40,582 nt of DNA from Gammaproteobacteria bacterium (lineage in GTDB: Bacteria > Pseudomonadota > Gammaproteobacteria > Natronospirales > REEB76). How positions within the stretch are numbered: position 1 is the first letter of the stretch; each line of letters begins with the position of its first letter. The notes below the pieces were generated by a model that worked only from the letters and a program-made list of their open reading frames with translations, had not been told where the DNA came from and did no database searches. A program made the translations under genes and the position numbers. Shown here piece after piece: positions 12,009-39,908 of this stretch. The DNA lies in NCBI GenBank assembly GCA_036383255.1, contig DASVOS010000002.1, positions 1-40,582 of the forward strand. Direction: 5' to 3'.

Positions 12009-12623
12009 ATGCCCGTCACCAAGGAACATCCGAGCCCCGCCGCGATGCTGGGCTGCCCGACTCCCGCCCGCTGGGTGGAGGCGGCGCTCGCGCAGCAGGA
12101 CGTGCTGCTCATAGATCACGCTAACTGCGAGAAGAAGGCCGCCGCCACCGCCTTCAACCTCATGTTCCGCTATGGCGAGCGGTTGCCGGAACTGCAGGAA
12201 GCGCTCTCGCGCCTCGCGCGGGAGGAACTGCGCCACTTCGAGCAGGCGGCGCGCATCCTGCGCGCCCGCGGCATCGAGTACCGGCCGCTCACGGCGGCGC
12301 GCTACGCGGAAGGCTTGCGCGGGCACCTGCGCAAGAAGGAGCCTGAACGTCTCACCGACCTCCTGGTGATCGGGGCGTTCATCGAGGCCCGCTCCTGCGA
12401 GCGCTTCGGCGCCCTGGCGCCGGTGTTGGACGGGGAACTATCGGCTTTCTACCACGGCCTGGATGCCGCCGAGTCGCGGCACTTCAGGCTCTACCTCGGC
12501 ATGGCGGAGAAGTATGGCGCGGGGGATGTGGCGGAGAGAGTAGAGCTGTTCCGGGGCGTGGAAGCGGAACTGATCGGTTCCAAAGACAAGCTATTCAGGT
12601 TTCATTCAGGGATGCCGGTTTAA
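12009..12623 (+). CDS. miaE: tRNA-(ms2io6A37)-hydroxylase MiaE
   Basis: A ferritin-like di-iron monooxygenase that hydroxylates the isopentenyl side chain of ms2i6A37 in tRNAs reading U-starting codons. 204 residues, the short form found in Pseudomonas rather than the longer enteric form. Four helices carry the likely ligands: E41 (CEKKAAATA), E73 and H76 (EELRHFEQ), E126 (IEARSCERF), E155 and H158 (ESRHFRLY). The start overlaps nothing but begins two bases after the glycerate kinase stop. It converges on lpxH; the two stops share the palindrome TTAA at 12620-12623. MiaA and MiaB, which make its substrate, are not in the window. Confidence 0.94.
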   Translation: MPVTKEHPSPAAMLGCPTPARWVEAALAQQDVLLIDHANCEKKAAATAFNLMFRYGERLPELQEALSRLAREELRHFEQAARILRARGIEYRPLTAARYAEGLRGHLRKKEPERLTDLLVIGAFIEARSCERFGALAPVLDGELSAFYHGLDAAESRHFRLYLGMAEKYGAGDVAERVELFRGVEAELIGSKDKLFRFHSGMPV

Positions 12624-13363
12624 TCCGCCTTCCCGTCGGACACGCGCCGGTCCGAGAGCATCCCGCCGCTCTTATCCCAAGTTAATCTGCTGGACTGTTC
12701 GTACCAGTCTCCCAGCACGATGCGCTCCAGGTGCTTGCCGTCCGCTGACGTGAAGCGGTGCACCGCGGGCCGGTGGGTGTGGCCGTGGATGAGGCGCGTC
12801 ACGCCGTGCTGGCGCATCAGCTCCTCCACCGCCTTCGGGTTCACGTCCATGATGTACTCCGCCTGGGTGGCGGTGTGGGCCTTGCTCTGGGCGCGCGCGG
12901 CGGCGGCGATGGCGCGCCGCTCCGCGATGGGCTTGGAGAGGTAATCCTGCTGCCAGGCCGGGTCCCGCAGCATGCGCCGCACCATCTGGTATTCCTTGTC
13001 GTCGGTGCAGAGCGTGTCGCCGTGGACCAGCAGGGTGGGGACGCCATAGAGGTCCAGCACCGTGGGCTCCGGCAAGAGCTCCACGCCGGTCCTGTCCACG
13101 AAGCCCTGGCCGATGAGGAAGTCCCGGTTGCCGTGCATGAGACGGATCGGCAGGCCGGCGCGGGTGGCTCCGCGCAAGGCCGCCATCACCAGCGCCGAGT
13201 GGGCGTCATCGTCGTCGTCGCCGATCCAGGCCTCGAAGAAGTCCCCCAGGATGTAGAGCGCCTGGGCGCGGCGCGCGTCTTCCCGCAGCAGCTTCAGGAA
13301 CGCATCCGTGGTCTCCGGCCGCGACCCATCCAGGTGCAGGTCGGAGATGAAGAGGGTGGTCAT
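12620..13363 (-). CDS. lpxH: UDP-2,3-diacylglucosamine diphosphatase
   Basis: Hydrolyses UDP-2,3-diacylglucosamine to lipid X and UMP, step four of lipid A synthesis, as a peripheral inner-membrane Mn-dependent metallophosphatase. 247 residues. The metal ligands fall at the same numbers as in E. coli: D8 and H10 (SDLHL), D41 (GDFFEAW), N79 (GNRD), H114 (HGDTL), H195 and H197 (HGHTHRP). Its ATG overlaps the stop of the upstream cyclophilin gene (ATGA), indicating translational coupling, as in the ppiB-lpxH pair of other gammaproteobacteria. It shows that the cell makes lipid A. Confidence 0.98.
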   Translation of the reverse strand: MTTLFISDLHLDGSRPETTDAFLKLLREDARRAQALYILGDFFEAWIGDDDDDAHSALVMAALRGATRAGLPIRLMHGNRDFLIGQGFVDRTGVELLPEPTVLDLYGVPTLLVHGDTLCTDDKEYQMVRRMLRDPAWQQDYLSKPIAERRAIAAAARAQSKAHTATQAEYIMDVNPKAVEELMRQHGVTRLIHGHTHRPAVHRFTSADGKHLERIVLGDWYEQSSRLTWDKSGGMLSDRRVSDGKAD

Positions 13364-14109
13364 TGCCTGACGGCACCCGGCAGCGGTTCCAGCGTGACCT
13401 TGAGGATCTTCACCGGCTGCACCGGTACGTCGTGGAACGCATCATCGGGTTTGTTGCCCTTCGGCACCACGGTATGGGTCTCGACGGTGGCGATCTTGCG
13501 CACCACGTCCATGCCTTCCACCACCTGGCCGAACACCGCGTAGCCCCAGCGGTCCGGGCGCGGGTCGAGCTTCCGGTTGTCCTCGAGGTCGATGTAGAAC
13601 GCCGCTTGGGCGCTGTGAGGATAGGCGTCGGTGCCCATGCCGATGGCTCCCGGCTGGTTGCTGAGGCCGTTGCCGGACTCGTTCGGGATGGGCGCGCGCT
13701 TGGGCTGGTGGTACTTGAGCTCGGGCGTGAAATCGCCGCCCTGGATCACGAAGCCAGGGACCACCCTGTAGAAGCCGCTGTTGTCGTAGTAGCGGTCCTT
13801 CACGTAGGCCAGAAAATTCTTCACCGTGAGCGGCGCGCGTTCGGCATTGAGCTGTACCAGGATATCGCCCATGTTGGTCTCGATCTTCACCAGCCGGTGG
13901 TTCTCGTCCACTGGCACGCGCTGCACCGGAGTTGGGGGCGGCGGCGGCAGGTAGCGCACGGGCTGGGCCGGCGGGGGCGGGCAGTCGGCGGCCGCCATCG
14001 TGGCGCCGGCGGGTGCCTGGGTCTGCACCGGTGCCGCCGGGTTCACCGGGGCCTGGCTGCAGGCGGCGAGCATGGCGACGCTCAGGAGAGCGATGAGTGA
14101 TGTGCGCAT
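13360..14109 (-). CDS. Lipoprotein cyclophilin-type peptidyl-prolyl isomerase (copy 1)
   Basis: 249 residues from the ATG at 14109, chosen over an in-frame ATG nine codons upstream because it is preceded by AAGGAA at good spacing and starts a clean lipoprotein signal, with the lipobox ending LAAC (C17). A Pro/Ala/Gln linker follows, then a cyclophilin domain at about 80-245 resembling E. coli PpiB: TNMGDILVQL, TVKNFLAYV, the active-site block GFYRVVPGFVIQGGDF with the catalytic Arg, and WGYAVFGQVVEGMDVV. Cyclophilins interconvert cis and trans X-Pro bonds. The lipobox suggests action at the envelope, unlike cytoplasmic PpiB. It is downstream of a paralogue and coupled to lpxH. Confidence 0.92.
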   Translation of the reverse strand: MRTSLIALLSVAMLAACSQAPVNPAAPVQTQAPAGATMAAADCPPPPAQPVRYLPPPPPTPVQRVPVDENHRLVKIETNMGDILVQLNAERAPLTVKNFLAYVKDRYYDNSGFYRVVPGFVIQGGDFTPELKYHQPKRAPIPNESGNGLSNQPGAIGMGTDAYPHSAQAAFYIDLEDNRKLDPRPDRWGYAVFGQVVEGMDVVRKIATVETHTVVPKGNKPDDAFHDVPVQPVKILKVTLEPLPGAVRQ

Positions 14110-14145
14110 GGCGGTTCCTTGTCGATGATCAATCATATCAAGACG

Positions 14146-14904
14146 TCACGGTTTCCCGGCGCGTGGCATGGGCAGCAGCGTCACCTTGAGGACTTTCACC
14201 GGCTTCACAGGCACGTCATCGTAAGGCGCCACCGCGTTCATCAGCGTCACGGTATGGGTCTCCACCGCGGCGATCTTATCCACCACGTCCATGCCCGCCA
14301 CCACCTGACCGAACACCACGTAGCCCGGGTTGCCGGCGTAGGGAGCGAGTTGCTGGGTGTTGTCCTGCACGTCTATGAAGAACGCGGCGTTGGCGCTGTT
14401 CGGGTCCTGGTCATGCGCCAGTGCGACGCTGCCGCGCTGATGGATCAAGGAGTTCTTCTCGAAGCGCACGGACTTGTGCGTGGGTGGGCGGTAGTCGAGA
14501 CCTGCCGTGTAGTCACCGGCCTGGATCACGAAGCCGGGTATCACCCGGTAGAAACCACTGCCGTCGTAGTAACGTTCCTTGACGTACATCAGGAAGTGCT
14601 TGACCGTGAGCGGCGCCTGGACGGCGTCCAGTTGCAGGGTGATGTCGCCATAGTTGGTGTGGACCCGCACCTCGCGGTGATCCTTGTCCACCGGTACCTC
14701 ATGGGGCGGTGGGGGTGAGGCAGGGGCAGCGGGTGCAGCCGGCTGGACCTGCGGCGGCGGGGCGGCAGCCGGTGCCGGGACGGTGGCAGCGGCGGGCGCA
14801 GGAGCGGCCGCAGGTGCCGGTTGCACCGGAGCAGGCTGCACGGGCGCCTGGCTGCAGGCGGTGAGCAAGGCCAGGGTCAGGAGAGCGGTGAGCGAGACGC
14901 GCAT
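14146..14904 (-). CDS. Lipoprotein cyclophilin-type peptidyl-prolyl isomerase (copy 2)
   Basis: 252 residues. Signal with lipobox LLTAC (C17), a longer Pro/Ala/Gln-rich linker (about 18-70), then a cyclophilin domain with GFYRVIPGFVIQAGDY (the catalytic Arg is kept; the usual GG after IQ is AG), NAAFFIDVQDN and GYVVFGQVVAGMDVVDKIAAVETHT. It clearly arose by tandem duplication with the next gene on the strand: same start, signal, domain order and C-terminus. The loop around NSANAAFF differs and lacks the WGY of copy 1. It is first in the ppi-ppi-lpxH run, 36 bases ahead of copy 1. Different client proteins are possible but unproven. Confidence 0.92.
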   Translation of the reverse strand: MRVSLTALLTLALLTACSQAPVQPAPVQPAPAAAPAPAAATVPAPAAAPPPQVQPAAPAAPASPPPPHEVPVDKDHREVRVHTNYGDITLQLDAVQAPLTVKHFLMYVKERYYDGSGFYRVIPGFVIQAGDYTAGLDYRPPTHKSVRFEKNSLIHQRGSVALAHDQDPNSANAAFFIDVQDNTQQLAPYAGNPGYVVFGQVVAGMDVVDKIAAVETHTVTLMNAVAPYDDVPVKPVKVLKVTLLPMPRAGKP

Positions 14905-14971: not shown

Positions 14972-14980
14972 TGATAAAAT
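14972..14980 (+). promoter_or_regulatory. Extended -10 promoter of the first gltX
   Basis: TGATAAAAT matches the extended -10 form TGnTATAAT. It is followed by GCCGCC, a GC-rich discriminator. Transcription should begin near 14986-14989, only a few bases before the ATG at 14991, so the message would be leaderless or nearly so. An upstream in-frame ATG at 14979 overlaps the -10 and so cannot be in this transcript. Confidence 0.65.
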
Positions 14981-14990
14981 GCCGCCAGCT

Positions 14991-16409
14991 ATGGTCACCC
15001 GCACCCGTTTCGCGCCGAGCCCCACCGGCCACCTGCACGTGGGCAATGCCCGCACCGCGCTGTTCTCGGCGCTGCTGGCGGCGCGCGACGAAGGCAGCTT
15101 CCTGCTGCGCATCGAGGACACCGATGCCAGCCGTTCCCTGCGGGCGCTGGAGGACGAGTTGCGGGAAGACCTCGCCTGGCTCGGCATCGCCTGGCAGGAG
15201 GGTCCGGACGTGGGCGGCTCGCATGGTCCCTATCGCCAGTCCGAGCGCGGCGACATCTACGCGGACCATCTCAAGCAGCTCGCCGACAGGGGCAAGGTCT
15301 ATCCCTGCTTCTGCACCGCCACCGAGCTCGAGGTCTCGCGCAAGGCGCAGCTCTCCGCCGGCAAGCCGCCGCGTTACGCCGGCACCTGCGCGAAGCTCGG
15401 TACCGCCGAGATCGAGACGCGGCTCGCCCGGGGAGACCGGCCGGCATTGCGCTTCCGGGTGCCGGAGCAGGGCGAGACCGTGTTCGTGGACCTGGTGCGG
15501 GGCCGGCAGGCCTTCGCCCACCACGACATCGGCGACTTCATCATCCGCCGCGCCGACGGCAGCCCGGCGTTCTTCTTCAGCAACGCGGTGGACGACGCGC
15601 TCATGGGCGTGACCCACGTGCTGCGCGGTGAGGACCACCTGGCCAACACGCCGCGCCAGTTGCTGCTGCTGGAGGCCCTCGGCCTCAAGGCGCCTTACTA
15701 CGCGCATCTGTCGCTCATTGTGGGACAGGGCGGTGCGCCGCTCTCCAAGCGCGAGGGCGGCGGCAGCCTCAAGGACCTGCGGGCCGAGGGCATCCTGCCC
15801 AAGGCGCTGCTCAATTACCTGGCGCGCCTCGGCCACAGCTACGCCGATAACGCGCTGGCGGATTTCGCCACCTTGGCCCGTAGTTTCGATGCCGCGCACC
15901 TGGGGCATTCGCCGGCCCATTTCGACCATACCCAGCTGGAGCACTGGCAGGGAGAGGCGGTGCGCCATGCCTCCAGCGCGGAGCTGTGGGATTGGATGGC
16001 GGTGGTGCATCCTGAGATCGCCCGGCTGGTCCCGGAATCGCGGCGGGAGGCATTCGTGGCAGCGGTGCGGGGCAACGTCACCCGGCCGCTGCATGGCGCG
16101 GAATGGGCCGCAGCGCTGTACGTGGCGAAGGTCGAACCCGCCCAGGATGCCCTGGCCGCCCTGAAGCGGGCGGGCAGGGGCTTCTTCGACGCGGTGCAGG
16201 GCGTGCTGCGCCAGTCTCAGCCTGAGTTCAAGCCCTTCGCCCAGGCGGTGGGCGCCGCCACCGGGTGCTCAGGCAAGGCCCTCTACCAGCCGCTGCGGGC
16301 CGCGCTCACTGGCCGCCTGGACGGACCGGAGATGGAGAAGCTGTGGAAGCTCATGGACCCCAAGCTCATCGAAGCCCGATTTAACCGCGCCGCAGCCGAC
16401 AACCTATAA
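14991..16409 (+). CDS. gltX1: Glutamyl-tRNA synthetase paralogue (GluRS2-like)
   Basis: Class I synthetase charging tRNA with glutamate; 472 residues. HIGH-type motif HLHVG at 14-18, KMSKS-type motif LSKR at 251-254, and a zinc-site pattern C106-x-C108 ... Y129-x3-C133. The C-terminal anticodon-binding part ends with [23 protein letters not shown], as in the shorter, divergent GluRS class. A canonical GluRS is encoded at 38505. The gene lies between the ppi-lpxH genes and cysS, the place of glnS in Pseudomonas. It may charge tRNA-Gln with glutamate for GatCAB, as second GluRS enzymes of some bacteria do; this is inference. The start follows the -10 placement. It runs into cysS with an 11-base gap. 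Confidence 0.93.
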
Positions 16410-16420
16410 CATCAGCCGCC

Positions 16421-17806
<1,386 letters not shown>

Positions 17807-18583: not shown

Positions 18584-18667
18584 AAATTCGGCTATTTTCC
18601 TCCTAGCGCATGTCCAGGCCATCCGCCGATGGTGGGTCGCTGCCACGCATGCGACAATCCGGCGCAT

Positions 18668-19516
18668 ATGACCGCCCAGCTCATAGACGGTAAAGCCTTC
18701 GCCGCAGGATTGCGCCGGGATATCGGCCGGCAGGTGGCCGCGCGCCAGCGCGCGCCGGGCCTCGCGGTGGTGCTGGTGGGGGCGGACCCGGCTTCGCAGA
18801 TCTACGTGCGCAACAAGCGTCAGGCCTGTGAGCAGGCGGGCTTCGTCTCCAAGGCCTACGACCTGCCGGTGGACACCTCCGAGGCCAGGCTCCTGGGCCT
18901 CATCGACGAGCTCAACGCGGACCCGGCCATCGACGGCATCCTGGTGCAGCTCCCCCTGCCGGGGCACATCCACACCGAACTCGTGATCGAGCGCATCCGC
19001 CCCGACAAGGACGTGGACGGCTTCCATCCCTACAACATCGGCCGCCTGGTCCAGCGCATCCCGCGGCTGCGGCCCTGCACGCCTTTCGGCATCATCAAGC
19101 TCCTGGAGCACTACGGCGAGAAGTTCTACGGCCGCCACGCGGTGGTGGTGGGGGCTTCCAACATCGTGGGCCGGCCCATGGCCTTGGAGCTCTTGCTGGT
19201 GGGTGCCACCGTCACGGTCTGCCACCGCTTCACCGACCATACCGAGCGCTACGTGGGAGAGGCCGACATCCTGGTGGTGGCGGTGGGCAAGCCGGGGCTG
19301 ATCCGGGGCGAGTGGGTGAAGCCCGGCGCCACGGTGGTGGACGTGGGCATAAACCGCATGCCGGACGGCGGCGTGCGGGGCGATGTGGAGTTCGAGAAAG
19401 CCCGGGAGCGGGCCGCTTTCATCACGCCGGTGCCCGGGGGTGTCGGGCCCATGACCGTCACCATGCTGCTCGCCAACACCCTGACCGCCGCCGAAGAGCA
19501 CGACCGGGCCAGATAA
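18668..19516 (+). CDS. folD: Methylenetetrahydrofolate dehydrogenase / cyclohydrolase
   Basis: Interconverts 5,10-methylene-, methenyl- and 10-formyl-THF with NADP. 282 residues from the ATG at 18668; an upstream in-frame GTG at 18629 would add 13 residues with no family match. Catalytic Y46 and K50 (IYVRNK), [19 protein letters not shown] with the key Asp, and the NADP-site [11 protein letters not shown] followed by [11 protein letters not shown]. It supplies one-carbon units to purine synthesis. It follows tRNA-Pro and precedes the tRNA-Leu-tig block, as in Pseudomonas. The 209 bases after it hold only weak hairpins and the tRNA-Leu promoter. Confidence 0.98.
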
Positions 19517-38504: not shown

Positions 38505-39908
38505 ATGACCGTCCGTACCCGTTTCGCCCCCAGTCCCACCGGCTACCTGCATATCGGCGGCGCACGCACCGCGCTGTTCTGCTGGCTGTACTCCCGCCAC
38601 CACGGCGGCACGTTCATCCTGCGGGTGGAGGACACGGACCGGGAGCGCTCCACGGACGCCGCGGTGCAGGCGATCCTGGACGGCATGGCCTGGCTGGACC
38701 TCAAGCAGGACGAGGGCCCGTTCTACCAGACCCAGCGCTTCGACCGCTACCGAGAAGTGGCCCAGCAGATGCTGGCGGCGGGCACGGCTTATCACTGCTA
38801 CTGCAGCAAGGAAGAGCTGGATGCCATGCGGGCCGAGCAGATGGCGCGCAAGGAGAAGCCCCGCTATGACGGCCGCTGCCGCGACCGCAGGGAGCCCAAG
38901 CCGGGCGTGACGCCTGTCATCCGCTTCAAGAACCCCCAGGAAGGGCAGACGGTGGTGGAAGACGCGGTCAAGGGCCGCGTGGTGTTCGACAACCACGAGC
39001 TGGACGACCTCATCATCGTGCGCTCCGACGGCAACCCCACCTACAACTTCTGCGTGGTGGTGGACGACATGGACATGCGCATCACCCACGTGATCCGCGG
39101 CGACGATCACCTCAACAACACCCCGCGCCAGATGAACATCCTGAAGGCGCTGGGGTTCACCCCGCCCCAGTACGCGCACCTGCCCATGATCCTGGGGCCG
39201 GACGGCACCAAGCTCTCCAAGCGCCACGGCGCCGTGAGCGTGATGCAGTACCGGGAAGACGGCTACCTCCCCGAGGCGGTGCTGAACTACCTGGTGCGGC
39301 TGGGCTGGTCCCACGGCGACCAGGAGGTGTTCAGCCGCGAGGAGATGGTGAAGCTCTTCGACATCAAGGACGTGAACACCTCCGCTTCCGCCATCAACCC
39401 CCAGAAGCTCTTGTGGCTCAACCAGCACTACATCAAGACCGGCGACCTGAAGCGCCTCGCGGACGAGCTCAAGTGGCATCTCGAGCGCATCGGCGTGGAC
39501 GTGTCCAAGGGTCCTTCGCTCGAGGGCCTGGTGAAGGCGCAGCAGGAGCGGGCCAAGACCTTCAAGGAGATGGCCGAGGGCAGCCGCTTCTTCTTCGAGG
39601 ACGTGAAGGAATACGATCCCCAGGCCGCCGCCAAGAACCTCACGCCGGACGTGCTGCCGGGACTTATGACCCTGCGGGAGAAGCTGGTGGCGCTGCCGGA
39701 GTGGGCAGCCCCGGCACTGCACGATGCGCTCAACCAGACCGCCGAGGGCCTGGGCCTGAAGCTCGGCAAGCTGGCCCAGCCCCTGCGGGTGGCGGTGTCC
39801 GGCGGCGGCATCTCGCCGCCCATCGACGCTACGCTGGAACTCTTGGGCCGCGAGACCACGCTCACGCGCCTCGACCGGGCCGTCAAGCACATCGAGAAGG
39901 CCGCCTAA
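38505..39908 (+). CDS. gltX2: Glutamyl-tRNA synthetase (canonical)
   Basis: 467 residues, full-length GluRS of the housekeeping type. HIGH-type motif YLHIG at 14-18, KMSKS-type motif KLSKR at 236-240, zinc-site pattern C98-x-C100 ... Y121-x3-C125, acceptor-binding DDHLNNTPRQMNIL, and the all-helical anticodon-binding domain ending in VSGGGISPPIDATLELLGRE. It differs clearly from the copy at 14991 and probably charges tRNA-Glu. It forms a single-gene unit between its promoter at 38468 and a strong terminator. The numbers 1 and 2 here follow position, not a published naming. Confidence 0.97.
   Translation: MTVRTRFAPSPTGYLHIGGARTALFCWLYSRHHGGTFILRVEDTDRERSTDAAVQAILDGMAWLDLKQDEGPFYQTQRFDRYREVAQQMLAAGTAYHCYCSKEELDAMRAEQMARKEKPRYDGRCRDRREPKPGVTPVIRFKNPQEGQTVVEDAVKGRVVFDNHELDDLIIVRSDGNPTYNFCVVVDDMDMRITHVIRGDDHLNNTPRQMNILKALGFTPPQYAHLPMILGPDGTKLSKRHGAVSVMQYREDGYLPEAVLNYLVRLGWSHGDQEVFSREEMVKLFDIKDVNTSASAINPQKLLWLNQHYIKTGDLKRLADELKWHLERIGVDVSKGPSLEGLVKAQQERAKTFKEMAEGSRFFFEDVKEYDPQAAAKNLTPDVLPGLMTLREKLVALPEWAAPALHDALNQTAEGLGLKLGKLAQPLRVAVSGGGISPPIDATLELLGRETTLTRLDRAVKHIEKAA

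Follow-up and report, generated by a model that had tools for sequence, protein, structure and literature searches.

The window, that is, the whole stretch of 40,582 nucleotides that was analysed, belongs to a genome assembly of 2.59 Mb in 18 contigs, with 100% completeness. It carries two genes for glutamate--tRNA ligase (GluRS), one of which occupies the interval, hereafter called the slot, between a peptidyl-prolyl isomerase (ppi) gene and cysS. The genes concerned are the following:

12620..13363, minus strand: lpxH, UDP-2,3-diacylglucosamine diphosphatase (TIGR01854, 300 bits)
13360..14136, minus strand: second cyclophilin-type peptidyl-prolyl isomerase (PF00160)
14146..14904, minus strand: cyclophilin-type peptidyl-prolyl isomerase, transcribed away from GluRS2 and bounding the slot on the left (PF00160)
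14991..16409, plus strand: GluRS2, second glutamate--tRNA ligase, predicted to glutamylate tRNA-Gln (TIGR00464, 401 bits)
16421..17806, plus strand: cysS, cysteine--tRNA ligase, right border of the slot (TIGR00435, 575 bits)
18629..19516, plus strand: folD, in the wider conserved neighbourhood running from cysS to folD (NF008058, 455 bits)
38505..39908, plus strand: GluRS1, canonical gammaproteobacterial GltX (TIGR00464, 595 bits)

As the original prediction had it, both GluRS genes are full-length and divergent, and their coordinates are right. The products, of 472 amino acids for 14991-16409 (without internal stop) and 467 amino acids for 38505-39908, both exceed the curated cut-off of 290 bits for TIGR00464, the bacterial glutamate--tRNA ligase family, and share 44% identity over residues 1-309. 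For the first gene, the longest reading frame with an ATG start begins at 14979, and a start at 14991 is reasonable because the alignments of relatives begin there. The neighbours are also as stated: lpxH and the ppi genes flank the gene upstream, and cysS lies 11 nt downstream; the family matches of lpxH, both cyclophilins, and cysS are far above chance level. folD is found near cysS in E. coli as well, and the GluRS gene at 38505 is preceded by hrpB. The tandem cyclophilin genes (13360-14904) separate lpxH from GluRS2; relatives carry one or two, which suggests that the second arose by local duplication and is gained and lost at times.

At the position of the HIGH motif, HVGN is found in the 14991 protein and HIGG in the 38505 protein, in line with the HxGN versus HxGG distinction published for GluRS2 and GluRS1 (PMC3927822). 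The zinc motif CxCx20Yx3C, canonical for gammaproteobacterial GluRS2 (PMC4381286), is intact in the 14991 protein (C106, C108, Y129, and C133). A tree built from 62 proteins unites every GluRS2 in a single group (99% SH-aLRT), separate from the GluRS1 clade with the 38505 protein, and places the 14991 protein outside the ordinary GluRS clade. The GluRS2 members of this tree are uncharacterised gammaproteobacterial proteins, including that of Piscirickettsia, and the GluRS2 of Acidithiobacillus ferrooxidans is absent from it. The 38505 protein stands beside gammaproteobacterial GluRS1 in the full tree and beside E. coli GltX in the tree of the catalytic half, and E. coli GltX joins GluRS1 whichever half of the protein the tree is built from. 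These separate clades counter the idea that GluRS2 is a recent duplicate of GluRS1. A topology constrained to unite GluRS1 and GluRS2 to the exclusion of all other sequences could not be rejected (p 0.52).

The predicted structure of the 14991 protein (mean pLDDT 92) is that of a complete bacterial GluRS, with Z scores of 39.6 against the non-discriminating T. elongatus enzyme, 36.4 against E. coli GluRS, and about 22 against GlnRS; such scores confirm the usual fold of a bacterial GluRS and do not discriminate between specificities. Within the HVxRGxDH segment the arginine, a glutamate-binding residue, is conserved, and this fits the activation of glutamate rather than glutamine. An identity as GlnRS was ruled out (42 bits versus a glnS cut-off of 425.8). 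The protein is not a GluQRS (YadB) either, as judged by the family cut-off and by the architecture of that enzyme, a catalytic domain without an anticodon-binding domain; the GluQRS of the genome lies elsewhere.

On the strength of trees over 366 genomes, a chimeric origin has been proposed for GluRS2, the catalytic half and the anticodon-binding half having been gained separately (PMC3927822); such an origin would leave the enzyme's present function unchanged. The anticodon-binding half of the 14991 protein is indeed a weak match to its Pfam model. Nevertheless, both half-trees agree in placing GluRS2 outside the GluRS1 clade and do not reproduce the published signal, which, with such small sampling, is mild evidence, and a chimeric origin seems rather doubtful. 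The gene itself is of a known type: the arrangement of GluRS1 and GluRS2 is that of A. ferrooxidans and Helicobacter pylori, and the enzyme is known biology.

Bacteria without GlnRS reach Gln-tRNA-Gln by GatCAB transamidation (PMC3927822). The source genome, at 100% completeness, contains no glnS above the cut-off and no gene near it, the matches to the GlnRS model being the two GluRS and a GluQRS. gatC, gatA, and gatB are each found above their cut-offs, in one cluster. The absence of glnS, the clustered gatCAB genes, and the separate GluRS2 lineage all point to the indirect route to Gln-tRNA, which the original prediction had put forward and which is well supported. The two outcomes named there as contrary evidence, a glnS gene in the absence of gatCAB and a 14991 protein grouped with ordinary discriminating GluRS, were sought, and neither was found.

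Both tRNA-Gln isoacceptors of the source genome have U1-A72, on which amidotransferases and H. pylori GluRS2 depend (PMC9976931); tRNA-Glu has G1-C72. tRNA-Gln(CUG), at L033:1501-1574 (G000:C10:143936), shares with tRNA-Glu a lengthened D stem and a variable loop of 4 nt, both missing from tRNA-Gln(UUG), and resembles a tRNA-Glu that carries U1-A72 and an anticodon for glutamine. In A. ferrooxidans, according to PMC9976931 and PMC3927822, a tRNA-Gln with such features is charged also by GluRS1. Ten window genes use CAG and CAA 258 and 23 times, respectively, and tRNA-Gln(CUG) may therefore bear much of the load. Among the 37 tRNAs found in the source assembly there is no tRNA-Glu(UUC), tRNA-Ala, tRNA-Ile, or convincing tRNA-Trp; these were probably lost at contig breaks, for example, at rRNA operons. 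A pattern search of 357 genomes of the class for an E. coli-like tRNA-Gln(CUG), using a pattern that fits the E. coli gene, found none. Of the 146 GluRS2 genomes, 96 have the Glu-like form; its presence in 48 of 183 genomes with glnS only, where it may survive from an earlier use of the indirect route, rules it out as a GluRS2 marker.

From gene content, tRNA sequences, lineage, motifs, and predicted fold we infer the charging specificities. GluRS2 at 14991 would load glutamate onto tRNA-Gln, most likely mainly tRNA-Gln(UUG), and GatCAB, recognising U1-A72, would turn Glu-tRNA-Gln into Gln-tRNA-Gln, thereby substituting for the absent GlnRS. GluRS1 at 38505 would charge tRNA-Glu and probably also the Glu-like tRNA-Gln(CUG), a division of labour suggested by the features of this tRNA and by the A. 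ferrooxidans precedent. Overall, it is very likely that 14991 encodes a functional GluRS2 that supplies GatCAB in place of GlnRS, in a slot that has long been GluRS2's.

The nearest known system is the GluRS pair of A. ferrooxidans (Salazar et al. 2003, as reported in PMC9976931 and PMC3927822), likewise gammaproteobacterial, with no GlnRS, with GatCAB, and with two GluRS. Two tRNA-Gln are also described there, the CUG isoacceptor having a tRNA-Glu-like lengthened D stem and lacking nucleotide 47. The parts compared show no difference; charging was measured in A. ferrooxidans and is predicted here. H. pylori shares a second GluRS for tRNA-Gln (predicted here), an HxGN-type motif, and U1-A72 in tRNA-Gln, but has one tRNA-Gln, and the published tree puts the GluRS2 of epsilonproteobacteria on a branch of its own (PMC3927822). 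The gltX gene of Piscirickettsia salmonis (L287) encodes a protein of the same GluRS2 clade, 49% identical to the 14991 protein, and stands in the order lpxH-gltX-cysS; it differs in being plasmid-borne between insertion sequences and in having no ppi between lpxH and gltX. On that plasmid (NZ_CP039041, L287:3110-6808), lpxH, GluRS2, and cysS, normally chromosomal genes, lie between IS481/IS982 and IS30 transposases.

Among 39 near genomes, GluRS2 was found in 24, all of which have gatA (24/24), glnS in 11, and both in 1. The larger sample, 357 genomes of the class with a completeness of at least 95%, has GluRS2 in 146, glnS in 186, and both in 3 (Fisher p 3e-66, with relatedness ignored). GluRS2 and glnS are thus almost mutually exclusive. 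GluRS2 is also far commoner in the class than in earlier counts, which gave 7/80 gammaproteobacteria and 0/43 betaproteobacteria (PMC3927822); the GluRS2 loci named here include MAGs labelled Betaproteobacteria and Burkholderiales. The three dual genomes (G032, G087, and G325) have GluRS2 in the slot by cysS and glnS elsewhere, and are possible intermediates of displacement. One genome of the class, G031 (100% complete), lacks both glnS and GluRS2 at the thresholds applied; it has gatA and one GluRS, a candidate non-discriminating enzyme. Non-discriminating GluRS have been reported absent from gammaproteobacteria (PMC3927822).

These counts bear on another reading of the two genes, in which GluRS2 at 14991 is non-functional or marginal, like the reported T. 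maritima GluRS2, and the GluRS at 38505, a non-discriminating enzyme, glutamylates every tRNA-Glu and tRNA-Gln so as to supply GatCAB. Many bacteria do manage with one GluRS and GatCAB (PMC3927822), as G031 might, and the Glu-like tRNA-Gln(CUG) could be a GluRS1 substrate. However, GluRS2 is retained in 146/357 genomes, hardly ever alongside glnS, and its catalytic and zinc motifs are intact over a large family. Moreover, HxGN is the mark of functional GluRS2, the inactive hyperthermophile type having HxGG (PMC3927822), and the 38505 protein clusters with gammaproteobacterial GluRS1. This makes a marginal GluRS2 very improbable, and a functional one remains the preferred reading.

The slot was compared at 40 GluRS2 loci, nearly each from another family, and 40 glnS loci. 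cysS directly follows GluRS2 in 35/40 loci (median gap 38 nt), and divergent ppi/lpxH lie upstream in 30/40; both sides of the slot are conserved in 27/40 and at least one in 38/40. P. salmonis and several MAGs are named examples of this arrangement. Slot neighbours were found beside glnS in 4/40 loci. The surroundings of cysS in 30 glnS genomes show the slot closed in 19, with ppi or lpxH directly adjoining cysS at gaps of 86-323 nt, and filled by glnS in 1; the slot of E. coli, with the annotated order lpxH-ppiB-cysS, is closed. In all 3 genomes with both genes, the slot is still GluRS2's. With further glnS loci added, slot glnS number 10 and come from six families; those in the Pseudomonas-type order include L231, L302, L303, L225, L298, and L311. 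Mapped on the glnS tree, slot position must have changed 5 times or more, and strong branches make no fewer than 2 of these changes unavoidable; glnS therefore came in more than once or left repeatedly. Such a slot glnS shares with the 14991 gene the location and the end product, Gln-tRNA-Gln, but GlnRS acts in one step and is of another family (42 bits for the 14991 protein against the 426-bit cut-off). Outside the class, the single GluRS gene of Bacillus subtilis lies upstream of cysE-cysS (L290:3989-7792) and a Peptococcaceae GluRS gene (L052) directly upstream of cysS; the linkage of GluRS to cysS may be older than the gammaproteobacterial slot.

Which gene held the slot first can be approached most directly in family f6, where it contains GluRS2 in L295, glnS in L311, and a GluRS2 relic in G020. 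In this last genome, which has glnS elsewhere, the sequence between ppi and cysS (L271:1380-1511, G020:C17) is a stop-ridden GluRS2 N-terminus. It scores 73 without gaps against f6 GluRS2 (400 dinucleotide shuffles: mean 31, maximum 44) and retains the GN of the GluRS2 motif. Relics were thus found in 1 of 19 closed slots, the other 18 giving nothing above background (scores 24-35). In family f50, the same slot holds GluRS2 (L183) or glnS (L206 and L298), in different genera. The f6 relic, the f50 states, and the breadth of GluRS2 synteny together indicate that GluRS2 was the earlier occupant, most directly in f6, and that the slot is probably GluRS2's own, repeatedly emptied or taken by glnS. 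The extension of this order of events to the whole class is our inference.

The converse, that GluRS2 displaced an ancestral glnS sitting between ppi and cysS, draws on the same families, since f6 (L295, L311) and f50 (L183, L298) have either gene in one slot according to genus, and in-place replacement therefore does happen. Yet slot neighbours are far scarcer beside glnS than beside GluRS2, slot glnS are scattered on their tree, the sole relic in a closed slot is GluRS2's, and in the dual genomes it is GluRS2 that is in the slot, glnS lying elsewhere. An ancestral glnS at this position is accordingly quite unlikely. The original prediction was right about the likeness to the Pseudomonas-type order, but in viewing the divergent GluRS as retained at the site of GlnRS in relatives it probably reversed the direction. 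Calling the slot the place of glnS probably does not hold, as the slot is GluRS2's in most GluRS2 families and glnS's in a minority of glnS lineages; the Pseudomonas-type order would have arisen because glnS took over a GluRS2 slot.

The favoured history is, therefore, one in which GluRS2 came first. We consider it likely that the lpxH-ppi/cysS interval is the ancestral home of GluRS2 across the class, beta lineages included, and that GlnRS spread by displacing GluRS2. As part of this history, the slot would have three states: occupied by GluRS2, closed (once with a relic), or with glnS installed, on more than one occasion. Lineages acquiring glnS would have lost GluRS2, their slot usually closing, and in a few glnS would have moved into it. 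GluRS2 distances correlate moderately with cysS distances (r 0.45), and this leaves room for horizontal spread of GluRS2. No account of the slot's history was found in the literature searched.

What is new here is the frequency of GluRS2 in the class, its near-perfect exclusion with GlnRS, and the single slot held by both. A gltX gene by cysS should not be mistaken for a dispensable extra housekeeping gene: these genomes probably cannot decode Gln codons without it. The slot states, the relic, and the genomes with both genes can be arranged in sequence along a tree, and offer a concrete record of the direct route replacing the indirect one. If the slot is indeed the ancestral home of GluRS2, then the GluRS2 route would be ancestral in the class rather than rare, and the dual-gene genomes would represent the intermediate stage.
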